Shown: positions 14,398-32,633 of the stretch, piece after piece
Numbering within the stretch: position 1 is the first letter of the stretch
Layout of the letters: each line of letters begins with the position of its first letter
IMG/VR virus record: IMGVR_UViG_3300042477_000179
Span: 1 to 32,868 of that record
Reading direction: 5' to 3' (one strand)
From: a virus
DNA: 32,868 bases
The notes under the pieces: generated by a model
Databases searched by the model: none
The model's input: only the letters and a program-made list of their open reading frames with translations
What the model was told of the DNA's origin: nothing
Program-made: the position numbers and the translations under genes

Positions 14398-14723
14398 GTG
14401 ATGAAAATGTATGGTATGTTACTGATTGGAACAATGATAAAATGCATGATTGGTCTTTTGCCTATCTTAAAAATAGCCAAAGCTATTTGGTGTTTTACAC
14501 ATGGGATGTTCCTATTGCGAAAGTGTTAAATAAAGAACACGCCCAATTGATCGCCGCCGCCCCTGACATGCTGGAGGCGTTGGAATATACCAGATCAACA
14601 ATGTCTGATGTATGCACACTAAATGGGTGCACCTGTAAAGAGTACGGGTGGCAACACGACGACCCCAAAACAATTGCAATGATCGATGCAGCCATCGCCA
14701 AAGCCAAAGGAGAGCAGCCATGA
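14394..14723 (+). CDS. phage protein with LIAAAPDMLEAL motif
   Basis: The protein is 109 residues. An N-terminal beta section is followed by HAQLIAAAPDMLEALE, a helix motif found in a very large set of phage early proteins of unknown function. A Cys-rich middle (VCTLNGCTCKEYGW) and a C-terminal AIAKAKGEQ tail come next. Both ends overlap neighbouring genes as ATGA. It is probably an accessory early gene; no biochemical role is known for this motif. Confidence 0.65.
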   Translation: MSDENVWYVTDWNNDKMHDWSFAYLKNSQSYLVFYTWDVPIAKVLNKEHAQLIAAAPDMLEALEYTRSTMSDVCTLNGCTCKEYGWQHDDPKTIAMIDAAIAKAKGEQP

Positions 14724-15034
14724 GTGGATGGATAACAGATAGGCTACCTACAAAACAAGAGGCAGTAAGTGGCAATGTTATATGTTGTCGATGGGGGCAC
14801 ATTAACCTACTGCAATGGTATAAGATTGAAGCAGGCGAGCCGTGGATGCCAATTCCGAAACCAGATATGTATGTCAAACCAAAACGATGGACGGTAAAGT
14901 GGGGCGGTGATGATGCTGACTTTTTTGCTCTGTTCGATTCAGGTAAGTTTTCTTATTACTTGCCAATGTTGTTTCGCGAACACGCAGACGCTGCCCAACG
15001 TATTGCCAACATTTACAACGAAGTGTTGCCATGA
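14720..15034 (+). CDS. DUF551-like protein, paralogue A
   Basis: The protein is 104 residues from ATG 14720 (ATGA overlap, AAGGAG 7 nt upstream). An upstream in-frame ATG at 14648 lies inside the preceding gene and is not favoured. It begins with WITDRLPT, the DUF551 signature, and contains GEPWMPI, YVKPKRWTV and the C-terminal HADAAQRIANIYNEV. The gene at 19649 shares all of these blocks while its middle differs. DUF551 proteins are common in phages and have no established activity. Confidence 0.75.
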   Translation: MSGWITDRLPTKQEAVSGNVICCRWGHINLLQWYKIEAGEPWMPIPKPDMYVKPKRWTVKWGGDDADFFALFDSGKFSYYLPMLFREHADAAQRIANIYNEVLP

Positions 15035-16300: not shown

Positions 16301-16487
16301 CAAAACCATCACACGTGAGATCCCTATCTCTGTGCTCCGCAAGTGGGTCGACGACCTCGGGGTAATCGTTGACAGCATCGACAAGGCCAAGACGCTGCAG
16401 GAATGCCGTAGAGAGATGAACGAAATCTGGGAAGTGGCCTCTGCTATCGACGATGAATATATCGAGGGGTACCGTGTCACAAAGTAA
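16293..16487 (+). CDS. small helical early protein
   Basis: This 64-residue protein is mostly charged helix (ISVLRKWVDDLGVIVDSIDKAK and CRREMNEIWEVASAI). No motif is recognised. Its 3' end overlaps the next gene by 14 nt, so the two are probably translated together. It could be a partner of the ribbon-helix-helix protein that follows, which is speculation from position. Confidence 0.55.
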   Translation: MTDKTITREIPISVLRKWVDDLGVIVDSIDKAKTLQECRREMNEIWEVASAIDDEYIEGYRVTK

Positions 16488-16662
16488 ACGCGGACGCCCA
16501 CGGGGCCGGAAACCATGTTACAACCCAAACGTTATATTCCGAATCCCTGAAGAGCACAACAACCACTTGAAGAGCATTGCAGAGGCCGAAGGCCTAACCA
16601 AGTCGGCACTACTGCGACAACTGGTAATTGAATACATCAATTATTACACGGAGAACAACTAA
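16474..16662 (+). CDS. ribbon-helix-helix DNA-binding protein with N-terminal AT-hook-like tract
   Basis: The protein is 62 residues from GTG 16474, which has GAGGGG just upstream; an ATG at 16453 is possible but poorly placed. The first 13 residues, SKRGRPRGRKP, contain the RGRP core of AT-hook minor-groove binders. The rest has the CopG/Arc-like layout: a strand (NVIFRIPEE) and two helices (NHLKSIAEAEGLTKSALLRQLVIEYI). It should bind DNA as a dimer and is the only clear small transcription regulator in the window. The stop overlaps the exonuclease start (TAATG). Confidence 0.7.
   Translation: MSQSKRGRPRGRKPCYNPNVIFRIPEEHNNHLKSIAEAEGLTKSALLRQLVIEYINYYTENN
16646..16653 (+). promoter_or_regulatory. 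early leader motif ACACGGAG, copy 4
   Basis: Identical copy, 8 nt before the ATG at 16662. It lies within the 3' end of the ribbon-helix-helix gene. Confidence 0.75.
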
Positions 16663-17664: not shown

Positions 17665-18141
17665 ATGGCAAATGATACAGTTGTAAGACTTAACGAACTT
17701 TACAATTCTTTACAAGAACATAGACGACTTTGTAAAGAGAACATGTTGGAGATTAAAAGAATATGCAAAACATATAATCTTGGCACACCAGGCTATGTTT
17801 ATGCTTTGATTACTGCAGACAATTCAATGATTAAAATAGGTTACACAGCCTCTCCTTATACAGGTAGAATACGAACTGTCAACTCACACAATCCACAGAG
17901 ACTGAAACTCGTAATGTTTACGAAGATGTTAGTCAATGCTCTGCAGCTTGAAAAAGAACTACATACAAAGTTGCTGGACAAAAAAATAGACCGTGAGTGG
18001 TTCGATTATACTAATGACACTATAGAAACTTTATGCCAGTTTTCTGAGCAACACAACGAAGGGCTTGCATATCATCCCTCGATATGGCCAGCACTCACAA
18101 TGCAAGCAGGCTTACATAAAGTAAGTTTCTTTTCCCACTAA
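17665..18141 (+). CDS. T5orf172/MUG113-like GIY-YIG family protein
   Basis: In this 158-residue protein the GIY-YIG-like fold spans about 43-115: GYVYAL, then MIKIGYT, an Arg in TGRIR, LEKELH with the catalytic-type Glu96, and EWFDY. This pattern is that of the T5orf172/MUG113 proteins, which are DNA-binding or nicking members of the GIY-YIG superfamily. The gene is clearly more AT-rich than its neighbours, using TTA, AAA and AAT codons, and is flanked by gaps. Recent transfer is likely. It may be a homing-type or accessory nuclease inserted in the replication cassette. Confidence 0.75.
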   Translation: MANDTVVRLNELYNSLQEHRRLCKENMLEIKRICKTYNLGTPGYVYALITADNSMIKIGYTASPYTGRIRTVNSHNPQRLKLVMFTKMLVNALQLEKELHTKLLDKKIDREWFDYTNDTIETLCQFSEQHNEGLAYHPSIWPALTMQAGLHKVSFFSH

Positions 18142-19442: not shown

Positions 19443-19652
19443 ATGAACCTCCCCCTCGACATCGCCGTCTGCATTGGCGGCCCCTGTGCTCAGAAAGACA
19501 AATGCGCCCGCTGGGTTGTCTACGACAGCATGGTCAGAGCCAAAGACGACGGCAAAACAGACTTCGATCCAAGAGTCATCATCACCACCCCACCGTTCAC
19601 ATACGACGATGGGTGCTTCTATTTTATGCCAACAACACGGAGTGAGCCATGA
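19443..19652 (+). CDS. small four-cysteine protein, likely metal-binding
   Basis: The protein has 69 residues. Cysteines at 10, 15, 21 and 58 (CIGGPCAQKDKC...GCFYFMP) recall the family of short phage proteins with two or three N-terminal cysteines, CxRW/CxRY, and a final C-x-Y/F-F-x-P. A zinc or iron-sulphur site is likely. Their function is not known. The start follows the early terminator closely, and its stop overlaps the next gene. Confidence 0.6.
   Translation: MNLPLDIAVCIGGPCAQKDKCARWVVYDSMVRAKDDGKTDFDPRVIITTPPFTYDDGCFYFMPTTRSEP
19635..19642 (+). promoter_or_regulatory. early leader motif ACACGGAG, copy 6
   Basis: Identical copy, 6 nt before the ATG at 19649. Here it is inside the coding end of the cysteine-rich gene, so the motif is kept even where there is no intergenic space. 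Confidence 0.75.
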
Positions 19653-19966
19653 GTGAATGGATAACAGACAGGTTGCCAACTATAGAGGATGCAATGGAGG
19701 ACACTGTTCTTGTATGGAACGGCATCGAGGCGATTTTATGGACCTATGACGGTGTTAATGAAGGCCAACCATGGGCTCCCATCCACAAGCTCATCGCCCC
19801 ATACGTCAAGCCGAAGAGGTGGACGGTGGAGTGGTATGAACTAAATAATTGCTGGCATGTAATAGACACTACGATTAATGGCGTTATGGGTTATCTGCAT
19901 TTGGAATTAACCCACGCCGACGCCGCACAACGCATTGCAGACATCTACAACGAGGTGATGCCATGA
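19649..19966 (+). CDS. DUF551-like protein, paralogue B
   Basis: This 105-residue protein begins MSEWITDRLPT and shares GQPWAPI, YVKPKRWTVEW and HADAAQRIADIYNEV with the protein at 14720. The central 30-40 residues differ. Such a pattern suggests an old duplication with a fast-changing middle that may contact different targets. It is coupled by ATGA overlaps to the cysteine-rich gene and the membrane peptide. Confidence 0.75.
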   Translation: MSEWITDRLPTIEDAMEDTVLVWNGIEAILWTYDGVNEGQPWAPIHKLIAPYVKPKRWTVEWYELNNCWHVIDTTINGVMGYLHLELTHADAAQRIADIYNEVMP

Positions 19967-22332: not shown

Positions 22333-23006
22333 TGCTATTCACACGTGACGAATTAGTCGAAATGGGGCTTCTGAGTCCGGTTGCCACACCTAGGTTGCCG
22401 GATTGCCAGAAGGTTGTCAGTTCGGACGAACAGGTGGCAACCGACCTAACCCCTTTATTTATATATATATACTTCTCTAGGTTGCTAGGTTGTAAGAATA
22501 TATTAGAAGTAGAAGGAGAAATAAATGAAAAGTATAGAGTGAAAACTATAGTTTCACCCTGCAACCTAGCAACCGAGAGGATGCTGGATTTCTTCGTAAG
22601 TCAATGGCACCGTTACGGTTGCGACGATTTGGCTTCGGTTGCTACGTCAGGGGGCACCTTGCAACCGGAAACGGTGGATGCCGTCGTCGAGGCAACCCGA
22701 GGTACGTATTTACACGACGTGCTGGCTCAGGATTGGGAGTATTTCAAGCGGTATAAACAGCCACCAGGCGACGCTTGGGATGGCGTCCTACCCGATGATG
22801 GCCCCGACCTATCCCAGTTCAAGGCTACCGAGGCCAGACTAATCCCGAGCCATGAGGTGCTGGAGTCGGCTGTGGTCGAACGGCAAAGAGTCAAGGCAGG
22901 CAAGACTATGCTGTCCCTGATGTATGAGCATAACGTCGACGACTACACATGGTTCGAAGGTACCGACGGACTGTGGCACTGTTACAACAACCAAGGGATG
23001 CAATGA
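22332..23006 (+). CDS. origin-spanning protein downstream of the primase-helicase
   Basis: The N-terminal 120 residues of this 224-residue protein are encoded by DNA full of GGTTGC repeats and an AT-rich run. They give an odd, poorly ordered sequence (PVATPRLPDC, PLFIYIYFSRLL, CNLATERML). The C-terminal 110 residues look like an ordinary charged helical domain (VLESAVVERQRVKAGKTMLSLMYEHNVDDYTWFEG). The reading frame may have been kept open across an origin. The protein could load or regulate the helicase, but no family is recognised. The stop overlaps the VRR-NUC gene (ATGA). Confidence 0.6.
   Translation: MLFTRDELVEMGLLSPVATPRLPDCQKVVSSDEQVATDLTPLFIYIYFSRLLGCKNILEVEGEINEKYRVKTIVSPCNLATERMLDFFVSQWHRYGCDDLASVATSGGTLQPETVDAVVEATRGTYLHDVLAQDWEYFKRYKQPPGDAWDGVLPDDGPDLSQFKATEARLIPSHEVLESAVVERQRVKAGKTMLSLMYEHNVDDYTWFEGTDGLWHCYNNQGMQ
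22379..22697. repeat. iteron-like GGTTGC array, candidate replication origin
   Basis: I count 13 copies of GGTTG(C/T) or close variants in about 320 bp. Forward copies start at 22379, 22393, 22401 (GATTGCC), 22412, 22480, 22488, 22617 and 22637. Reverse copies start at 22436, 22560, 22568, 22660 and 22691. An AT-only run (TTTATTTATATATATATA, near 22455-22471) sits inside the cluster and could be the unwinding site. It lies within the gene just after the primase-helicase. Array, AT tract and replicative neighbour together suggest a replication origin. Confidence 0.6.
22480..22574. repeat. 13-bp inverted repeat inside the origin candidate
   Basis: GGTTGCTAGGTTG at 22480-22492 is exactly repeated in reverse complement at 22562-22574, 69 nt apart. 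Between them is a smaller hairpin, GTGAAA with TTTCAC at 22539-22557. The arms each hold two GGTTG units, so a paired complex or a single-stranded initiation structure is possible. Confidence 0.65.
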
Positions 23007-23442: not shown

Positions 23443-23742
23443 ATGTTATACGAGTTGATCTTATCCGACGTATGCACACTGTGCGGTGTCACACTCGAGG
23501 ATGCCTACAGTCCCACACGCCGTGCTGACGTGGTACGTGCACGGTCTATCACGTGGTATATCCTAAGCAAACACTACGGGTGGACGCTGACCTCTATAGC
23601 CAAGCACAGTCAGAAGCACCATGCTACGGTCTTGCACGGCATCGCCAGCATCGAGGATGCCTACCTCATGTATGCCGACGTGAGGTCGGTCGTCACTGAC
23701 ATACAGCAGATCAACTATGCGAGCCTCATGAGGGGCCTGTGA
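23443..23742 (+). CDS. stand-alone DnaA domain IV (DNA-binding domain) protein
   Basis: Residues 22-72 of this 99-residue protein match the C-terminal domain of the initiator DnaA. A helix RRADVVRARSITWYILSKH is followed by GWTLTSIAKHSQ and the signature-like KHHATVLHGIASIED, which in DnaA reads (R/K)DHTTVLHAI and contacts the DnaA box. The AAA+ motor and other DnaA domains are missing. A perfect DnaA box (TGTGGATAA) lies 4 bp after its stop. The protein could regulate transcription, help load the phage origin, or compete with host DnaA. RBS GGGGG precedes the ATG. Confidence 0.8.
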   Translation: MLYELILSDVCTLCGVTLEDAYSPTRRADVVRARSITWYILSKHYGWTLTSIAKHSQKHHATVLHGIASIEDAYLMYADVRSVVTDIQQINYASLMRGL

Positions 23743-23745
23743 TGT

Positions 23746-23776
23746 TGTGGATAAGTGACCAAGTATTAAGCATAAC
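23746..23776. promoter_or_regulatory. DnaA box plus AGCATAAC element upstream of the terminase operon
   Basis: TGTGGATAA at 23746-23754 is the exact reverse complement of the DnaA box TTATCCACA. AGCATAAC follows at 23769-23776 after 14 bp. The gap lies between the DnaA-domain gene and the small terminase gene. The same two blocks recur at 27296, so this looks like a regulatory site rather than chance. Confidence 0.6.
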
Positions 23777-23787
23777 TTAATAGCTGA

Positions 23788-24177
23788 ATGAACCTAACAC
23801 CTTCACAAGAGGCCGAACTAAAACGTCGTGCACGAGCCATGATGGGGTGGACTGCCCTGTCACGGTGGTGCTCGGTTCTGTTGAACCGTGACGTGCCTGT
23901 GAGTGAGTTGAAGGCTGACTATGCCCTCATGATAGAGAACGAACGTAACGACGTCAGGTTCCAGCTGGCACAAACTCAGATCGACAAAGCCCTGTCAGGT
24001 GATAACACGATGCTGATCTGGCTGGGCAAACAACACCTAGCACAGACGGACAAGGCTGCAACGGAGGTATCAGGCAAGACAGACATCAGGATAGTGCTTG
24101 CACCTACACATGAGGAACCCAAGCACATCGAGGATGCAGAGATTATCGCCATAGGGCCAAAGGACGCTTCGTTGTGA
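23788..24177 (+). CDS. terS: terminase small subunit candidate
   Basis: The N-terminal helices of this 129-residue protein (SQEAELKRRARAMMGWTALSRWCSVL) could form a helix-turn-helix. The C-terminal part (QTQIDKALSGDNTMLIWLGKQHLAQTDKA) matches the oligomerisation/TerL-contact pattern 'ALxGDxxxLIWLGKxxLxQxDK' common in small terminases. It directly precedes the large subunit with a GTGA overlap. The family identity is by pattern and synteny. No clear SD precedes the ATG, which lies 11 bp after the AGCATAAC element. Confidence 0.75.
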   Translation: MNLTPSQEAELKRRARAMMGWTALSRWCSVLLNRDVPVSELKADYALMIENERNDVRFQLAQTQIDKALSGDNTMLIWLGKQHLAQTDKAATEVSGKTDIRIVLAPTHEEPKHIEDAEIIAIGPKDASL

Positions 24178-25346
24178 TTACGATTGACGCACAGCTACAC
24201 GACGGCCAGAAACTAATCTTCCGTAACCGGAGGCGGTTCAACACGGTCGCCTGTGGTCGTAGGTTTGGCAAGACCGTGATGGCGGAAGCCCTGCTTATCG
24301 AGTCTGCTATCATGGGCAAACCAGCGGCTTACTTCGCACCTACTTACAAGATGCTATCTGATGTTTGGAAGGCACTCAAGACAACCCTGCATCCTATAAT
24401 CACTGGGGTAAGCGAACAGGAGAAGCGCCTTACCATCGAGACGGGTGGTATCATCGACTGCTGGTCATTAGACGCCTTCGACAGTGTGCGGGGCCGTAAG
24501 TATGCCCGTGTCGTCTGCGATGAGGTGGCGATGGTCAGGAACTTCATGGACGCCTGGAACGAGGCGATCCGGCCGACGTTAACGGATTACAAGGGCGACG
24601 GGTATTTCTTCTCGACACCCAAGGGGCGCAACGACTTCCACGCTATGTACGAACGTGCTAGGCTAGAAGAGACCTATGCATCATTTCGTATGCCCACAAG
24701 TGTGAATCCTTACATCGCACAGGATGAGATCAACGCTGCACAGCGAGAGCTACCGACCGTGGTGTTCAATCAGGAATACCTGGCTGAGTTTGTAGATGTT
24801 CAGGGTGCTCTGGTTAAACGTGAGATGATCACGTACGTCAACAGCGACCAGGTGCCTAGGGATCTCAAGATCGGGATGGGTGTTGACCTTGCGATCTCCA
24901 AATCAGACACGGCTGACTACACCGCCATTGCTGTAGTTGGCTATGACAAGGACTCGGCGCGTAGGTACGTGCTGGACATGTGGAGGGGTAAGGTAGGGTT
25001 TCACGAAGTCGTCCAAGGCGTCCAAAGCCTAGCGGCTAAGTGGAACCCATCGCGTATCAACATCGAGGCTGTTCAATATCAGGTGGCAGTTGTGCAGGAA
25101 CTTCTCCGCAAGACATCCCTACCTGTCAAGGCTGTCAAACCAGACCGCGACAAGGTAACACGGTTTCACGCTCTGCTGGCAAGGTATGAGCAGCTACTGG
25201 TTACACATGTACGTGGGCTGGAACCTTCATTCGAACAGGAACTACTATCATTTCCAGAGGGCAACCACGACGACATGGTGGATGCTCTCGTTTACGCTGA
25301 AATGGCGGCTGTTAAGTCGCAAGGTGCTGGAGTTGTATTTCTATAA
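24174..25346 (+). CDS. terL: terminase large subunit
   Basis: This 390-residue protein is the DNA-packaging motor. The ATPase has Walker A CGRRFGKT (27-34), Walker B VVCDE (113-117) and coupling motif STPKGRND (147-154). The nuclease has GVDLA with D238, an acidic residue in NIEAV (E298) and NHDDMVDALVYA with D366-D367. At 390 residues it is shorter than most (420-560) yet keeps all motifs. Start GTG 24174 overlaps the small subunit stop. The packaging strategy (cos, pac or terminal repeats) cannot be set from this motif set alone. Circular assembly is consistent with headful packaging or with cohesive ends. Confidence 0.95.
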   Translation: MITIDAQLHDGQKLIFRNRRRFNTVACGRRFGKTVMAEALLIESAIMGKPAAYFAPTYKMLSDVWKALKTTLHPIITGVSEQEKRLTIETGGIIDCWSLDAFDSVRGRKYARVVCDEVAMVRNFMDAWNEAIRPTLTDYKGDGYFFSTPKGRNDFHAMYERARLEETYASFRMPTSVNPYIAQDEINAAQRELPTVVFNQEYLAEFVDVQGALVKREMITYVNSDQVPRDLKIGMGVDLAISKSDTADYTAIAVVGYDKDSARRYVLDMWRGKVGFHEVVQGVQSLAAKWNPSRINIEAVQYQVAVVQELLRKTSLPVKAVKPDRDKVTRFHALLARYEQLLVTHVRGLEPSFEQELLSFPEGNHDDMVDALVYAEMAAVKSQGAGVVFL

Positions 25347-25358
25347 CGGACTAGAATA

Positions 25359-27293
25359 ATGGGACTAATTCAACAAATCAAGGCTTTCATCTCCCCTACT
25401 GGCGAGGTCGCACAGAACGACCTCCCTATACCAGTGACGGAGTTGTGGAACAAACATAACTTCACACCCATCGTTAACTGGCGTGGTGCTTACCAGATGT
25501 GGAAGGCGAACCCCGTGGCTGTGGCGTGCACGTTGACGTATTCACTGATGATGCCGGAAGCACAGATCGGTGTGATTACTCCGAACGGTTACGACTTCGA
25601 ATCGCCTATCGTGGGAATGCTCACACGTAATCAGTGGCGTGTGACCTTTGGCGAAATCATGACGATCCTGTGCATCGGTGGCAACGCCTATGGGTACAAA
25701 CTACGCAACGCATCTGGTGCTATCATCGGCATGCGCTGGTATTCAGATAAAAACTTCGCCCCTGTCAACGATGGTTACGGCGACGTCGAACACTACCTAT
25801 ACTACGATGGACAGGTAGCCTACACCGTACGCAAGGAAGACGTGGTACACATTCAGGGCTTTTGGTACGATCCCGAAAAAACCCTCGGTGGTGGCAGCCC
25901 TGTTGAGTTAGCAGCGCAGTCTATCGAGGGCTACAATGAGGCCACGTCTACTGTGTTTAACATCCACAAGAACGACGCCATGCCGAAGACGATCGTAGTC
26001 TACGACGAAGAGCTCACACCTGACCAGGTGGCACTTGCTGAACGTTCGTTCAAGCGCAAGTATGGTGGCGACCGTAGGGGCTCCGTGGGCATTATGTGGG
26101 GTGTCAAGGACGTGAAGCGCCTTGCACTTGACTGGAACGAATTAGGATTGTCTGATACCTTTGGGCAATACGAGACGCGCATCTGTGGTGCTTACAAGGT
26201 GCACCCGATTATTGCCGGTACGCACATGGGACTCTCTTCAGCTACCTACAGCAATTTCGAACAGGCAAGCAAGGACTTCACTAACATGGTACGTGTTCCC
26301 TTCTGGAATATGATTGCTGACCAAATCAACGCACAGCTTGCTATCCCTGAATATGGCGTGCAACTTGGGTTTGACCTCTCGACAGTGCAGGCCCTGGCAG
26401 GTGAGACCATCGCCATGGAAGCGGTATCTACAGACAACGACAGCGACGTAGATGATGATTCAGACGTTGACGATTCACCGGAGACACTAAGCCTCGGAGG
26501 TGGCGTGTCTTCGGACAAATACTTTCAGAAAAACTACAGCGTTACCGTAGGCCCCGAAACGAAAGCCTGGCTGCACCATTCAGATTCACAGGTCTACGCC
26601 AAAGCCTACGACGATCTGCTGAATAAGCAATCCGAGAAGATTGCCAAAGAGTGGGGGCGTGTGCTGGACGATTTATACGACACCATCACGGCTGACGTTA
26701 AGGCGCTCCGCATCGAGACGAAGATAGATGATCAGTTCAGCCTGGACGTGTGGGAAAAGAACTTTGTCGACGGAACCGAGGACAGCCGAACCGAGCTCAC
26801 TGAGATCGTGCTGGCATTAGCACAGGAAGAGGTCGACGCTGAGGGCGAGTTCACACGGGGCCGTGAGGCTGGTATAACAGAGAGCGCCAATAAGATAGCG
26901 GATTCCGTAGGCACCATCAGAACCGACATTCAGACTCTACTACGACAGAATGCAGGCGTTGGTGAGGAGGAGCTGGCAAGGCTGTTAAAGGAAAAATTCT
27001 CTGACCTGAAGGTATCACGTGCTAATGCCATCGCTCGCACCACAGCCACAGCCACAACGGGCACCGTGCAGAAATCCGTCTGGGATGAATTGGGCGGTAT
27101 CAGACGGTCATGGGTGGCCTTGTCAGGGGCACGTGATGAGCACATGGCGGCACACGATCAACTCGAAGGGGAAAAGGCAGGGCCAGGTCTTTTCTTGGTT
27201 GGTGGTGAAACAACACCTTATCCTGCAGGCGATGGACTATCGGCATGGAACGCCGTCAACTGTCGATGCTTCACACGTGCACGGCAAGCCTAA
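25359..27293 (+). CDS. portal protein fused to a MuF-like head morphogenesis domain
   Basis: Residues 1-357 of this 644-residue protein are an HK97-type portal: PVAVACTLTYSLMM, KEDVVHIQGF, GGGSPVELAAQSI, then HPIIAGTHMG and YSNFEQASKDF. An acidic linker at about 358-385 (DNDSDVDDDSDVDD) joins a C-terminal domain (about 440-644). Its landmarks are SRANAIARTTATATT, WVALSGARDEHMAAHDQLEGE and the closing NCRC, which mark MuF/SPP1 gp7-like proteins. In most phages these are separate genes. Fusion ensures one MuF domain per portal subunit. It sits between terminase and the prohead protease, as expected. Confidence 0.92.
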   Translation: MGLIQQIKAFISPTGEVAQNDLPIPVTELWNKHNFTPIVNWRGAYQMWKANPVAVACTLTYSLMMPEAQIGVITPNGYDFESPIVGMLTRNQWRVTFGEIMTILCIGGNAYGYKLRNASGAIIGMRWYSDKNFAPVNDGYGDVEHYLYYDGQVAYTVRKEDVVHIQGFWYDPEKTLGGGSPVELAAQSIEGYNEATSTVFNIHKNDAMPKTIVVYDEELTPDQVALAERSFKRKYGGDRRGSVGIMWGVKDVKRLALDWNELGLSDTFGQYETRICGAYKVHPIIAGTHMGLSSATYSNFEQASKDFTNMVRVPFWNMIADQINAQLAIPEYGVQLGFDLSTVQALAGETIAMEAVSTDNDSDVDDDSDVDDSPETLSLGGGVSSDKYFQKNYSVTVGPETKAWLHHSDSQVYAKAYDDLLNKQSEKIAKEWGRVLDDLYDTITADVKALRIETKIDDQFSLDVWEKNFVDGTEDSRTELTEIVLALAQEEVDAEGEFTRGREAGITESANKIADSVGTIRTDIQTLLRQNAGVGEEELARLLKEKFSDLKVSRANAIARTTATATTGTVQKSVWDELGGIRRSWVALSGARDEHMAAHDQLEGEKAGPGLFLVGGETTPYPAGDGLSAWNAVNCRCFTRARQA

Positions 27294-27295
27294 CT

Positions 27296-27321
27296 TGTGG
27301 ATAATTAAACAATAGCATAAC
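27296..27321. promoter_or_regulatory. second DnaA box plus AGCATAAC element, upstream of the prohead protease
   Basis: TGTGGATAA at 27296-27304 is again an exact DnaA box. AGCATAAC follows at 27314-27321 after 9 bp. It occupies the 57-bp gap between the portal-MuF and prohead protease genes. The pairing of both blocks with the site at 23746 suggests a shared regulator. Confidence 0.55.
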
Positions 27322-27350
27322 CCAAATTCGTATGGTATGGGGAACACACC

Positions 27351-28100
27351 ATGAAAATTGAACGTAAGACTTTCGAATTTCAAGCTAAGGCAGAGGGTGA
27401 CAGTGGCGTAATTGAGGCCATCGTCTCCGTATTTAATAACGTTGACAGTTACGGCGACCGTGTGAAATACGGTTTCTTCGACGACTCGCTGAAAACCAAA
27501 CTGCCAAAAGGCGTCTGGGCTCACGACTGGAAAACACCAGTGGCGAAGACATTAGAAGCACGTGAGCTAATGCCAGGCGACGCCATGCTGCCTGATAGCT
27601 TGAAAGACCTTGGCGGCCTGTATATCAGGGGCCAATTCAACATGAATACACAGCGAGGACGTGAGACCTATTCCGACATCAAGGAAGGTATCATCGACGA
27701 GTTCTCGATCGGTTATTCGGTAGTCGAGGAAACATACGCACAGGACGGAGCACGTGAACTGGTAAAGGGTAAACTTTACGAATGGTCACCGGTGCTGTTC
27801 GGTGCTAACTCACAAACGGCACTTATTAGCGCTAAGGGACTCAATGATGATCTCGAGGACGTTGGAACCGACGTCGATAGACTCATTACGAGGCTGAACG
27901 AACGCGCAGAGATTAGGCAGAAGGAAGGGCGCACGCTATCGTCGGCTAACGTGGCACGCCTGACCGAATTGATGGACACACTGACCGCTGCAGTGGGGAA
28001 CATTAAAACCCTCATTGACGCGGCACAACCGGTTTCCGCAAAGGCTGCCATGGAAATGGAAGCCCTGCGGGCATTAGTAAACAAGAGGAAAAAATCATGA
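27351..28100 (+). CDS. HK97-type prohead protease
   Basis: This 249-residue protein is a serine protease of the U35 family that removes the delta/scaffold part of the capsid protein. The catalytic His is probably H58 in WAHDW and the Ser S119 in EFSIGY. The FQAKAE...GVIEAIVSVFNNVDSYGDRV opening is also typical. The C-terminal 80 residues are charged helix and may serve as an internal scaffold segment. Its stop overlaps the capsid start (ATGA). Confidence 0.9.
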   Translation: MKIERKTFEFQAKAEGDSGVIEAIVSVFNNVDSYGDRVKYGFFDDSLKTKLPKGVWAHDWKTPVAKTLEARELMPGDAMLPDSLKDLGGLYIRGQFNMNTQRGRETYSDIKEGIIDEFSIGYSVVEETYAQDGARELVKGKLYEWSPVLFGANSQTALISAKGLNDDLEDVGTDVDRLITRLNERAEIRQKEGRTLSSANVARLTELMDTLTAAVGNIKTLIDAAQPVSAKAAMEMEALRALVNKRKKS

Positions 28101-29446
28101 ATTTGCAACAGATCAACGACGCCATCAGCGCCAAGTCTGCAGAGCTCGAAACGCTCCTTGCTAAGACAGAGCCAACGATGGACGAAGTAAAGTCTGCACA
28201 GACATTGAACGCTGAAATCGACGCGCTCAATGAGCAGGCCAACGAAGTGAAGTCATTCGAAGCTATCAAGGCCAAGAACGCACAACGCCAGACGGAAGTG
28301 AAGACAGCAGTAAACAAGCTGCCAAAGTCTAACGACATCAAGGTCGGCGAATCATCAGCAAAGGCTAACATGCCAGATGCTGAGTACAAAGCATATGTAA
28401 CAGGCTTGTTTGTAGGTGGTCTTTCTAACGAGACAGCACGCCAAAAGTACGCTGAAGTAACAGGTGTTGAGTACAAGTCACACACACAAGGCAACGACGC
28501 CACAGGCGGTATCTTCGTTCCTACGGAGACATCTAGCCTTATCGTCAACCTGAAGGACACATACGGATCATTCCGTCGCAACACACGTGTTGAGCCTATG
28601 GGCTCCGAGTCCATCCGCATCTTCCGCACAGGCGATGACGTGACGGCATACTGGGGATCAGAGACAGGTACATTGTCATCATCTGACATGTCATTTGATG
28701 CAGTGACGTTGAACGCAAAGAAGATGTATGCCCTCGCTGTTCTCTCCGAAGAACTCGTAATGAACAGCACACAGAATCTTGGCCTTCGCTTTGCTGAATC
28801 GGTAGCACGCCAGTTCGCAAAGAAGGAAGACGAAGCTGGTTTCTTGGGTGATGCTACGTCAACATACGGCGGTGTTCTCGGTCTTGCTGGCAAGCTCCGC
28901 AAGGTTCTCGAGGATGGCGGCGGCACATGGACGAACGACACGCACAAGGGCTACCTTGGTTCAGCACAGGTATGCGCTGGCAACACGTTCGCAGAGGTAA
29001 CAATGGGCAACCTCATTGCTGGTATGCGTAAGGTTCCAACATACGCACTCACGGGTGCCAAGTGGTATTTCAACAAGGTAGCTTTCGGTGAGACAGCAGA
29101 GCGCCTCGCATACGCACAGGGCGGATCAACAGCAGCAGAACTTGCTGGCTCATTCGGCCAGCGCCTCTTCGGCTATCCTGTCGAGTTCGTCGACGTGATG
29201 CCATCAGCAGATGCTAACAGCCAGGTGTTTGCTTACTTCGGTAACCTTACACAGGCTGCAACTCTTGGTGATCGCATGGCAACATCGATCAAGCAAGATG
29301 CAAGCAAGGGCTTCGACACAGATACAATCTATGTCAAGGCTACTCAGTACCTTGACATCAAGGTGCATGAGATGGGCAACTACAATGCTACTGCAGCATC
29401 ACGTACAACAGGCCCTGTTGTTGGTTTCGTAACTATTAACTCATAA
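28097..29446 (+). CDS. HK97-fold major capsid protein
   Basis: Residues 1-100 of this 449-residue protein are an acidic coiled-coil delta domain (ISAKSAELETLLAKTEP...NAEIDALNEQANEV), removed by the protease. The core begins near 110 with GGIFVPTETSSLIVNL and contains the E-loop/P-domain patterns MYALAVLSEELVMNS and AESVARQFAKKEDEAGFLGD. It ends in ATQYLDIKVHEMGNYN. It uses a narrow set of codons (ACA, GCA, CGC), as expected for the most-expressed gene. RBS AGAGGA precedes the ATG. Confidence 0.95.
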   Translation: MNLQQINDAISAKSAELETLLAKTEPTMDEVKSAQTLNAEIDALNEQANEVKSFEAIKAKNAQRQTEVKTAVNKLPKSNDIKVGESSAKANMPDAEYKAYVTGLFVGGLSNETARQKYAEVTGVEYKSHTQGNDATGGIFVPTETSSLIVNLKDTYGSFRRNTRVEPMGSESIRIFRTGDDVTAYWGSETGTLSSSDMSFDAVTLNAKKMYALAVLSEELVMNSTQNLGLRFAESVARQFAKKEDEAGFLGDATSTYGGVLGLAGKLRKVLEDGGGTWTNDTHKGYLGSAQVCAGNTFAEVTMGNLIAGMRKVPTYALTGAKWYFNKVAFGETAERLAYAQGGSTAAELAGSFGQRLFGYPVEFVDVMPSADANSQVFAYFGNLTQAATLGDRMATSIKQDASKGFDTDTIYVKATQYLDIKVHEMGNYNATAASRTTGPVVGFVTINS

Positions 29447-30778: not shown

Positions 30779-31288
30779 ATGGCAGAAAAGTATATCAAGA
30801 ATAACGCGGGGCAACTGGCAGAAGTCGAAGCTACCGTATCATCATCCGGCGCCACGGAAGCGGGCAAAATTGTTGCTCTTGATGGAGGCGGCAAGCTGGA
30901 CAATTCGGTATTGCCATCAGGGATTGGTGCAACTGTAAAGGTTGCTGCGACTAGCGAGAACCTCAGCGCAGGCGATCTTGTGAATCTTTACAATGATTCC
31001 GGCACAGTCAAGGCACGTAAGGCAGATGCAAGCAATGGACGCCGTGCACACGGCTTTGTAATCGCATCTACGACAAGCCCTGCAAATGCGACTGTCTACC
31101 TTGATGGTACGATTTCAGGGTTATCTGGTTTGACACCTGGCGCTGCATACTATTTGAGCGGGTCGTCTGCAGGCGATGTTGTCTCGACAGCACCAACGAC
31201 ATCGGGCTATATTTCGCAGGAAGTCGGAATCGCTTTGTCAGCAACCGAGATCAACTTTGAAGAACAGCAACCTATTACGCTGGCCTAA
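30779..31288 (+). CDS. fibre or head-decoration protein with beta domain shared with the previous gene
   Basis: The first 50 residues of this 169-residue protein (AEKYIKNNAGQLAEVEATVSSSGA...GKIVALDGGGKLDNSVLPSGIGA) look like a phage fibre attachment/shaft module. The rest repeats the beta layout of its neighbour (NLSAGDLVNLYNDSGTVKARKAD, RRAHGFVIAST, AAYYLSGSSAGDVVSTAP). This is probably a trimeric fibre or capsid fibre. The stop overlaps the next start (TAATG). Confidence 0.6.
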   Translation: MAEKYIKNNAGQLAEVEATVSSSGATEAGKIVALDGGGKLDNSVLPSGIGATVKVAATSENLSAGDLVNLYNDSGTVKARKADASNGRRAHGFVIASTTSPANATVYLDGTISGLSGLTPGAAYYLSGSSAGDVVSTAPTTSGYISQEVGIALSATEINFEEQQPITLA

Positions 31289-31494
31289 TGGCTAACCTAC
31301 GACCGATAACAACTAGCGGCAATCTGTCGGAGTTTTCAAGCTCTGACAGTTTGCTGTTTGGTGCGTCTATTGTGTTAGCAGAACAGGGCAGCAGTCCGAG
31401 CACACCGGCATCTGGACTGGCTTTGTTGTATGTCAAGTCAGACGGCAATCTGTATTTCAAGAACGATGCAGGCACGGAAACACAGCTTAACTAA
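31288..31494 (+). CDS. stand-alone copy of the fibre N-terminal domain
   Basis: The protein has 68 residues. Most positions match the first 68 residues of the next gene: RPITT, SDSL-x-x-GAS, EQGSSP-x-TP, SG, DG-x-LYFKNDAGTET. It ends at the point where the long fibre continues into glycine-rich sequence. It may occupy some fibre sites without the adhesin, or be a shaft subunit that forms mixed trimers. TAATG overlaps at both ends. Confidence 0.65.
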   Translation: MANLRPITTSGNLSEFSSSDSLLFGASIVLAEQGSSPSTPASGLALLYVKSDGNLYFKNDAGTETQLN

Positions 31495-32633
31495 TGGCAG
31501 ATAAAAGACCCATAACAACACCGGCTGCACTCGCAGAGCTAACGAATAGTGATAGCTTGATTGCGGGTGCATCGGCTGTTCTGTCTGAACAAGGCAGCTC
31601 ACCAGCTACGCCTACGTCTGGCTATGGCATCGTCTACGCAAAGACAGACGGGAAGCTCTATTTTAAGAACGATGCAGGAACCGAAACTGACCTGACCGCT
31701 ACTGGTGGTGGCGGTGGGACCAATCCAGTTATACGCGAATACACAGCCAACGATACATGGACAAAACCGACCGCGGCTAATTTTTGGGGATGTCTGGTTT
31801 TATGTGCTGGAGCAGGTGGTGGTGGGGGCGGCGGTAGAAGAGGGGCTGTTTCTACTCTCAGAGGCGGTGGCGGTGGGGGCGGCGGTGCTGGACTTACTTA
31901 TAGATTTTTTAGAAACGCAGCTTTAACAAGTGCCAGTTACTCCATAGTCGTAGGTTCTGGTAGTACAGGAGGTGCTGGAAGAACTGCTGATAATAGTAGC
32001 GGTGGCTTTGCAGCTAATGGCGGCTCAAGTACATTTGGTTCAAGTGGTACTAGTAGTGAATATGTTATTGCTAATGGCGGTGGCGGTGGCGGCGGTGGAT
32101 TTACTGGTAATGGTTCAGCGGGGGCTGGTGCTGTAAATACAAATACTACTCCATCATATGGGCCATTTGCGATTGGTGGTAATGCTGGTGGCGCTGGCGC
32201 ATCTGGAGGCTCGGGCGGCATTGGTGGTGTTGGACTTAACGGTCAATATGCAGGGAGTGGCGGTGGTGCTGGCGGAGCTATTGATAGTAACAACAATGTG
32301 CGTAACGGTGGAAATGGAGGCGGCATATATGACGCTGGCACCTTAAATGCAGGCCCTACTGGTGCAACGATTTTAGAGCAGGATGGCACAAACGGTAGCA
32401 ATTTTGCCAACAATATAATTTTTGATACAGCGAACGCTCTTACTAATGCTTTAGGTACTGGCGGATCAGGTGCTTCTGCTGGTAATGCATCGCAGGATGG
32501 TGGAAAAGGTGGTAATGGAGGACGTGCAGCTGGCGGTGGAGGGGGCGGCGCTTCATTTAATGGATATAATTCCGGTGCTGGCGGCAATGGTGGCAATGGA
32601 CTTGTGATTGTAGTCGAATACTACGGAGCATAA
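31494..32633 (+). CDS. glycine-rich tail fibre / adhesin
   Basis: Residues 1-68 of this 379-residue protein are the attachment domain shared with the preceding gene. From about 80 comes the glycine-rich adhesin pattern: YTANDTWTKPTAANFWGCLVLCAGAGGGGG opens it, then many GGGG and GGAGG runs alternate with short Thr/Asn/Ser loops up to VIVVEYYGA. Such domains form polyglycine-helix layers in phage receptor-binding proteins, with the loops choosing the receptor. The second half is more AT-rich in its loops, as expected for fast change. It probably determines host range. Confidence 0.85.
   Translation: MADKRPITTPAALAELTNSDSLIAGASAVLSEQGSSPATPTSGYGIVYAKTDGKLYFKNDAGTETDLTATGGGGGTNPVIREYTANDTWTKPTAANFWGCLVLCAGAGGGGGGGRRGAVSTLRGGGGGGGGAGLTYRFFRNAALTSASYSIVVGSGSTGGAGRTADNSSGGFAANGGSSTFGSSGTSSEYVIANGGGGGGGGFTGNGSAGAGAVNTNTTPSYGPFAIGGNAGGAGASGGSGGIGGVGLNGQYAGSGGGAGGAIDSNNNVRNGGNGGGIYDAGTLNAGPTGATILEQDGTNGSNFANNIIFDTANALTNALGTGGSGASAGNASQDGGKGGNGGRAAGGGGGGASFNGYNSGAGGNGGNGLVIVVEYYGA

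Follow-up and report, generated by a model that had tools for sequence, protein, structure and literature searches.

Gene order around the DnaA-C locus

The window analyzed here, that is, the whole stretch of DNA under study, is the complete IMG/VR virus record IMGVR_UViG_3300042477_000179 (32,868 bases, classed as linear). It encodes a 99-amino acid (aa) protein corresponding to the DNA-binding domain of DnaA (domain IV) standing alone, hereafter DnaA-C, and carries two exact DnaA boxes in the intervals that precede the terminase and the prohead protease genes. We consider it probable, from comparison of related phages, that this protein, consisting of domain IV only, regulates phage transcription, likely as a late-gene activator with its box in the place of the −35 element.

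The genes around the locus are ordered as primase/helicase (VapE domain), a 224-aa protein, a VRR-NUC-like nuclease, DnaA-C, small terminase (terS), large terminase (terL), portal, prohead protease, and capsid. We refer to the interval between DnaA-C and terS as gap 1 and to the one between portal and protease as gap 2. The features concerned are the following:

23443..23742, + strand: DnaA domain IV standing alone, 99 aa, a proposed regulator of late-gene transcription (PF08299, AlphaFold, Foldseek)
23746..23754, + strand: element 1 of gap 1, DnaA box TGTGGATAA, proposed −39..−31 (exact match)
23773..23780, + strand: element 2 of gap 1, −10/−7-like TAACTTAA, 27 bp from box start (offset-27 peak over lineages)
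23788..24177, + strand: small terminase terS, start 7 nt past element 2 (location ahead of TerL)
24174..25346, + strand: large terminase, first proposed target operon (Pfam Terminase_6N/6C)
25359..27293, + strand: portal with a head-morphogenesis part at its C terminus, in the first proposed target operon (Pfam Phage_portal, PHROG 2662 and 2468)
27296..27304, + strand: element 1 of gap 2, DnaA box TGTGGATAA (exact match)
27323..27330, + strand: element 2 of gap 2, −10/−7-like CAAATTCG, 27 bp from box start (CAAGTTCG and GAATTTCG in relatives)
27351..28100, + strand: prohead protease, opening the second proposed target operon (Pfam Peptidase_S78)
28097..29446, + strand: major capsid protein (Pfam Phage_capsid)

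DnaA-C is a DnaA DNA-binding domain

The DnaA-C gene starts with an ATG at 23443 and its stop codon ends at 23742. The initial annotation had read the product as the DnaA DNA-binding domain and nothing else, and had suggested a profile search with PF08299 (Bac_DnaA_C); this family turned out to be the sole Pfam match (E 6.9e-15, residues 4–70), scoring 55.3 bits for a curated cut-off of 31.5 and covering positions 2–69 of the 69 of the profile. No AAA+ domain III was detected in the 99-aa protein by Pfam, PF08299 being the only domain found, and Pfam and PHROG matches together point to DnaA-type or unknown families only. The fold agrees as well. The AlphaFold (AF2) model has a pLDDT of 94.9 and a pTM of 0.88, and its top Foldseek matches in the PDB are the complexes 3pvp and 1j1v of the DnaA DNA-binding domain with DNA (TM 0.78, rmsd ~1.5).

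According to published work, DnaA domain IV contacts DNA through R399 in the minor groove and through residues 423, 432–435, and 438–439 (PMC5043019, PMC5742627). The equivalent of E. coli R399 is R34, which is invariant across 31 relatives. The recognition motif of the window protein, K-H-H-A-T-V-L-H, departs from R/K-D-H-T-T-V-L-H by D433→H and T435→A, the other residues being retained. The equivalents of R432–T435 and L438–H439 are largely kept in clade A, to which the window belongs (KHH[AST]TVLH), and altered outside this clade (WNRITVTM, RERQPVMR, FHRVTIRH, and WRLATVHR).

Two exact DnaA boxes conserved in clade A

When both strands of the window are searched, the exact box TTATCCACA is found only at 23746–23754 and 27296–27304, both times on the − strand, where the + strand reads TGTGGATAA. 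As first described, both copies fall in intergenic gaps. The original chance estimate of ~0.25 per 9-mer agrees with our recomputed expectation of 0.24 (both strands), and two or more copies arise in 4 of 100 dinucleotide shuffles. A search of the whole window for boxes with one mismatch, also suggested initially, gave 10 sites for 6.55 expected, hence no excess. Within the window taken alone, the box pair is modestly significant and suggestive only; we regard the observation as real because it is conserved in relatives.

To assess conservation, we compared distinct relatives in viral contigs with a DnaA-C of at least 60% identity. In gap 1, before terS, all 23 distinct clade-A sequences have the box TTGTGGATAA, and in gap 2, before the protease, all 25 do. 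Over the 18 bases that follow the box, 6–13 positions differ between subclades, while the box and the spacing are unchanged. All seven long clade-A records (25–34 kb, window included) carry boxes at both gaps, two of the seven have one extra box lacking element 2, and two carry a third one among the tail genes with unchanged geometry. Subclades A1 and A2 display a third TTGTGGATAA in the tail region (L134:11177, G005:27380), followed 27 bp on by TATATTCG in the same geometry. This site is probably a third late promoter, missing from the window.

The initial annotation had also paired each box with AGCATAAC. This sequence does occur at 23769 and 27314, but it is also present at 22927 and at a previously unlisted position, 12066, on the other strand. 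The pairing is not maintained in the relatives L053, L057, L058, and L135, which have both boxes, and AGCATAAC was rejected as second element since its pairing is not conserved in A1–A4 relatives. The conserved partner is TAnnTTyG, described below.

Protein and sites change together across lineages

All lineages compared belong to one family of metagenome phages; in the distant ones, TerL is 65–69% and DnaA-C ~25–38% identical. Five further lineages (B1, B2, C, D, and E) each have a motif of their own that is common to gap 1 and gap 2, 56–76 bp before the protease ATG. The short forms of these motifs are TGTnnGG.TTT, TGTTAAnAT, GGTGCAAAAC, TGTGTAAAnTT, and CTAACATATCA. The B1 site (TGTnnGG.TTT) lies within the inverted repeat AATCCnnACAnTGTnnGGATT, and the sites of the others are TGTTAAnATTTT in B2, GGTGCAAAAC in C, TGTGTAAAnTTTT in D, and CTAACATATCA in E. 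Pairing each gap 1 with its own gap 2 gave the best of the 720 possible pairings of six lineages, the other 719 all being worse. Compared with random windows of the same locus, the shared motif of each lineage reached p values of 0.004–0.028, and in the larger contigs searched (21–34 kb) it is almost confined to the two gaps.

Between B1 and D, TerS is 84% identical and DnaA-C 28% identical, and the sites differ. The site is the same in C and C2, with DnaA-C 77% identical, and in A and A1, with DnaA-C 66% identical. The lineage motif thus follows the recognition helix of DnaA-C and not TerS, which we rejected as reader of the sites because those of B1 and D differ in spite of the 84% TerS identity. 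Recognition residues and sites change together, as expected if DnaA-C reads these sites. It is very improbable that the sites are kept for another phage or host reader and that DnaA-C merely changes in parallel: further phage proteins do diverge between lineages, but the clade-A site is exactly what the DnaA domain IV family is known to bind, TerS is excluded, and the only other small DNA-binding-like protein (16453–16662, weak DUF6290 match) is limited to clade A among the genomes compared.

The same comparison bears on host DnaA, with which the phage protein might compete according to the initial annotation. In one alternative, host DnaA would bind the boxes and tie late expression or phage replication to itself, with the phage protein a competitor or unrelated. 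The clade-A site is indeed an exact consensus DnaA box. However, in most lineages the sites at these two positions do not correspond to DnaA boxes and vary together with the phage protein, which makes host DnaA an unlikely reader; moreover, each genome has just two or three boxes and no cluster. We hold this explanation to be very improbable.

An extra scan with the DnaA-C alignment turned up no further lineages. Relatives with a TerL of ~44% identity or less mostly have no DnaA-C gene in the DNA examined.

As a separate observation, clade A (terS at 23788–24177 in the window) and the sister lineages have terS genes without sequence relationship despite 65–69% identity in terL, so terS was swapped.

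A second element at fixed spacing suggests late promoters

Counted from the initial T of the box, an element close to TAnnTTTG (TAnnTTyG) starts at offset 27. Scored in lineages A, B1, B2, and C only, with the register unadjusted, the mean match at this offset is 4.64 of 6, for 2.11 at the next best offset, and none of 4000 shuffles reached 4.64. The register of D, E, and the contig L235 (see below) was shifted by hand by 2, 6, and 1 bases, so these three count only as compatible with offset 27. At the place of element 2 in gap 1, relatives carry TATCTTTA, TATTTTCA, TAGGTTTG, and TATGTTTG. No −35 hexamer was found at normal spacing, and the box covers −39 to −31. In the window, terS starts 7 nt past element 2; the distance is 4 nt in A2, C, C2, D, E, and L235. 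If the element stands at −12 to −5, a 4-nt gap means that transcripts would begin at the terS start codon.

The −7 element of Bacteroidota is TAnnTTTG (PMC6847099), and element 2 fits both this pattern and a sigma-70-type −10 (TAnnnT). A general use of the Bacteroidota promoter (TTG-N17-22-TAnnTTTG) across these genomes was rejected, the pattern not being enriched. Several elements also carry a G where the −7 element of Flavobacterium has none (PMC6847099). For these two reasons, we do not claim a Bacteroidota host. A host search over 84,980 genomes retrieved one 5-kb contig (L235) of the Bacteroidetes metagenome-assembled genome UBA10438, which is too weak for host assignment. This contig has DnaA-C, TAGGTTTG, and terS in the same layout and is the sole hint at a host.

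This anatomy also bears on a role of DnaA-C in replication or packaging, in which the sites would be an origin or a pac/cos-type signal instead of promoters. In favor of such a role, DnaA-C is related to a replication initiator, phage proteins like it carry a replication initiation annotation, and one site touches terS. Nevertheless, an AAA+ or helicase-loading domain is missing from DnaA-C, TerS does not vary with the site, and the two or three single boxes stand at gene starts, each with a −10-like element at fixed spacing. We judge this explanation quite improbable, and nothing was found in support of the link to replication that had initially been raised.

The position of the box is what makes a repressor the main rival. 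DnaA-C would then cover the −35 region of both late promoters and silence them early in infection, until its dilution or some other factor lifted the block. The box overlaps the position expected for an upstream promoter element, and the sites of two lineages are inverted repeats, a common operator form. Yet, apart from the box, there is no −35-like hexamer at normal spacing for unaided polymerase, and late activators are typically encoded immediately ahead of terS (PMC13123087). Repression therefore seems unlikely to us, though less so than the other alternatives.

A candidate late activator

The initial annotation had proposed that the phage protein controls the terminase and head genes. This part gains comparative evidence from the joint change of site and recognition helix, unlike the idea that host DnaA targets the sites. 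In the mechanism that we favor, each site would be the upstream half of a late promoter, with the box at about −39 to −31 followed by TAnnTTyG. DnaA-C would most likely bind there and recruit the host RNA polymerase to both promoters, activating rather than repressing them. The terS–terL–portal genes would be switched on first, then protease and capsid. Clade A would use the exact DnaA box, while in sister clades the base-reading residues and both sites are altered jointly, so that each phage would keep a private protein/site pair. MotA and RinA/Ltr proteins act in this way in other phages, and DnaA-C is encoded at the place of RinA and Ltr. Ltr proteins of differing sequence have the position directly before terS and this function in common (PMC13123087), and the box of T4 MotA substitutes for the −35 element (PMC6755090).

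On balance, we lean toward the broader view that these proteins form an undescribed class of late activators, in which DnaA domain IV alone would stand in for the −35 element at two late promoters. Its specificity would have changed jointly with the two sites in at least six lineages, several of them with a leaderless terS mRNA. We found no description of a transcription role for phage DnaA-C in the open-licence literature.

Several points weigh against this interpretation. Element 2 of gap 2 in the window matches at just 4 of 6 positions. Elsewhere in these genomes, TAnnTTTG shows no enrichment, which gives no support to it as a general host promoter element. The more distant lineages G and H have a DnaA-C-like gene but no shared gap motif was found in them, so the family as a whole may not share the regulator role. 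Finally, a box overlapping −35 could also be a repressor site.

Stand-alone phage DnaA domain IV proteins are usually labeled as replication initiators. The genome evidence presented here points toward transcription control. With ~100 aa, a single 9–10 bp site, and at least six putative natural specificities with two sites each, the system allows a direct test of specificity change in DnaA domain IV, a change rarely visible in essential host DnaA, which is fixed on its box. It also represents a checkable candidate late switch for a widespread group of uncultured phages.

Other features of the window

A GIY-YIG-type (T5orf172/MUG113) protein at 17665–18141 has no match in eight compared relatives and seems to have been inserted recently, as a homing endonuclease might be. 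The small proteins at 14648–15034 and 19649–19966 are related, both with WITDRLPT near the start; they are missing in the close relatives compared and found in distant ones. The adjoining genes 31288–31494 and 31494–32633 have a duplicated N-terminal segment in common, and the product of the latter continues with glycine-rich sequence, as tail fibres do.

Comparison with known systems

We found no near matches in named phages. The DnaA-like proteins of Pelagibacter and Cellulophaga phages are also stand-alone DnaA-C proteins (25–38% identity), but they are annotated as replication initiation or DnaA. As far as annotation shows, the genes of HTVC010P and phi19:3 do not adjoin terS, and the parts read of HTVC010P, Bradyrhizobium ppBeUSDA76-2, and phi19:3 contain no exact boxes.

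With DnaA domain IV itself (PF08299; 1J1V, 3PVP), DnaA-C shares the fold, the minor-groove arginine, and the helix-turn-helix and, in clade A, also the box. It differs from DnaA in that domains I–III, and hence the ATPase, are absent and D433 is replaced by His; in addition, other phage lineages have other sites, and the role proposed here would be promoter control.

At the sequence level, the arrangement resembles RinA, Ltr, and TP901-1 Alt, whose sites lie at or directly past the 3′ end of their own gene with the late promoter next. Unlike these, phage DnaA-C is of a different protein family, has a second candidate promoter before protease and capsid, and uses one 9–10 bp box instead of several repeats. 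The likeness to T4 MotA (sigma appropriation), which is also one of sequence, lies in an activator box in the −35 place at a fixed distance from a −10-type element. In contrast to MotA, the fold is that of DnaA domain IV, the phage box is centered at about −35 rather than −30, and the proposed targets are late rather than middle genes.
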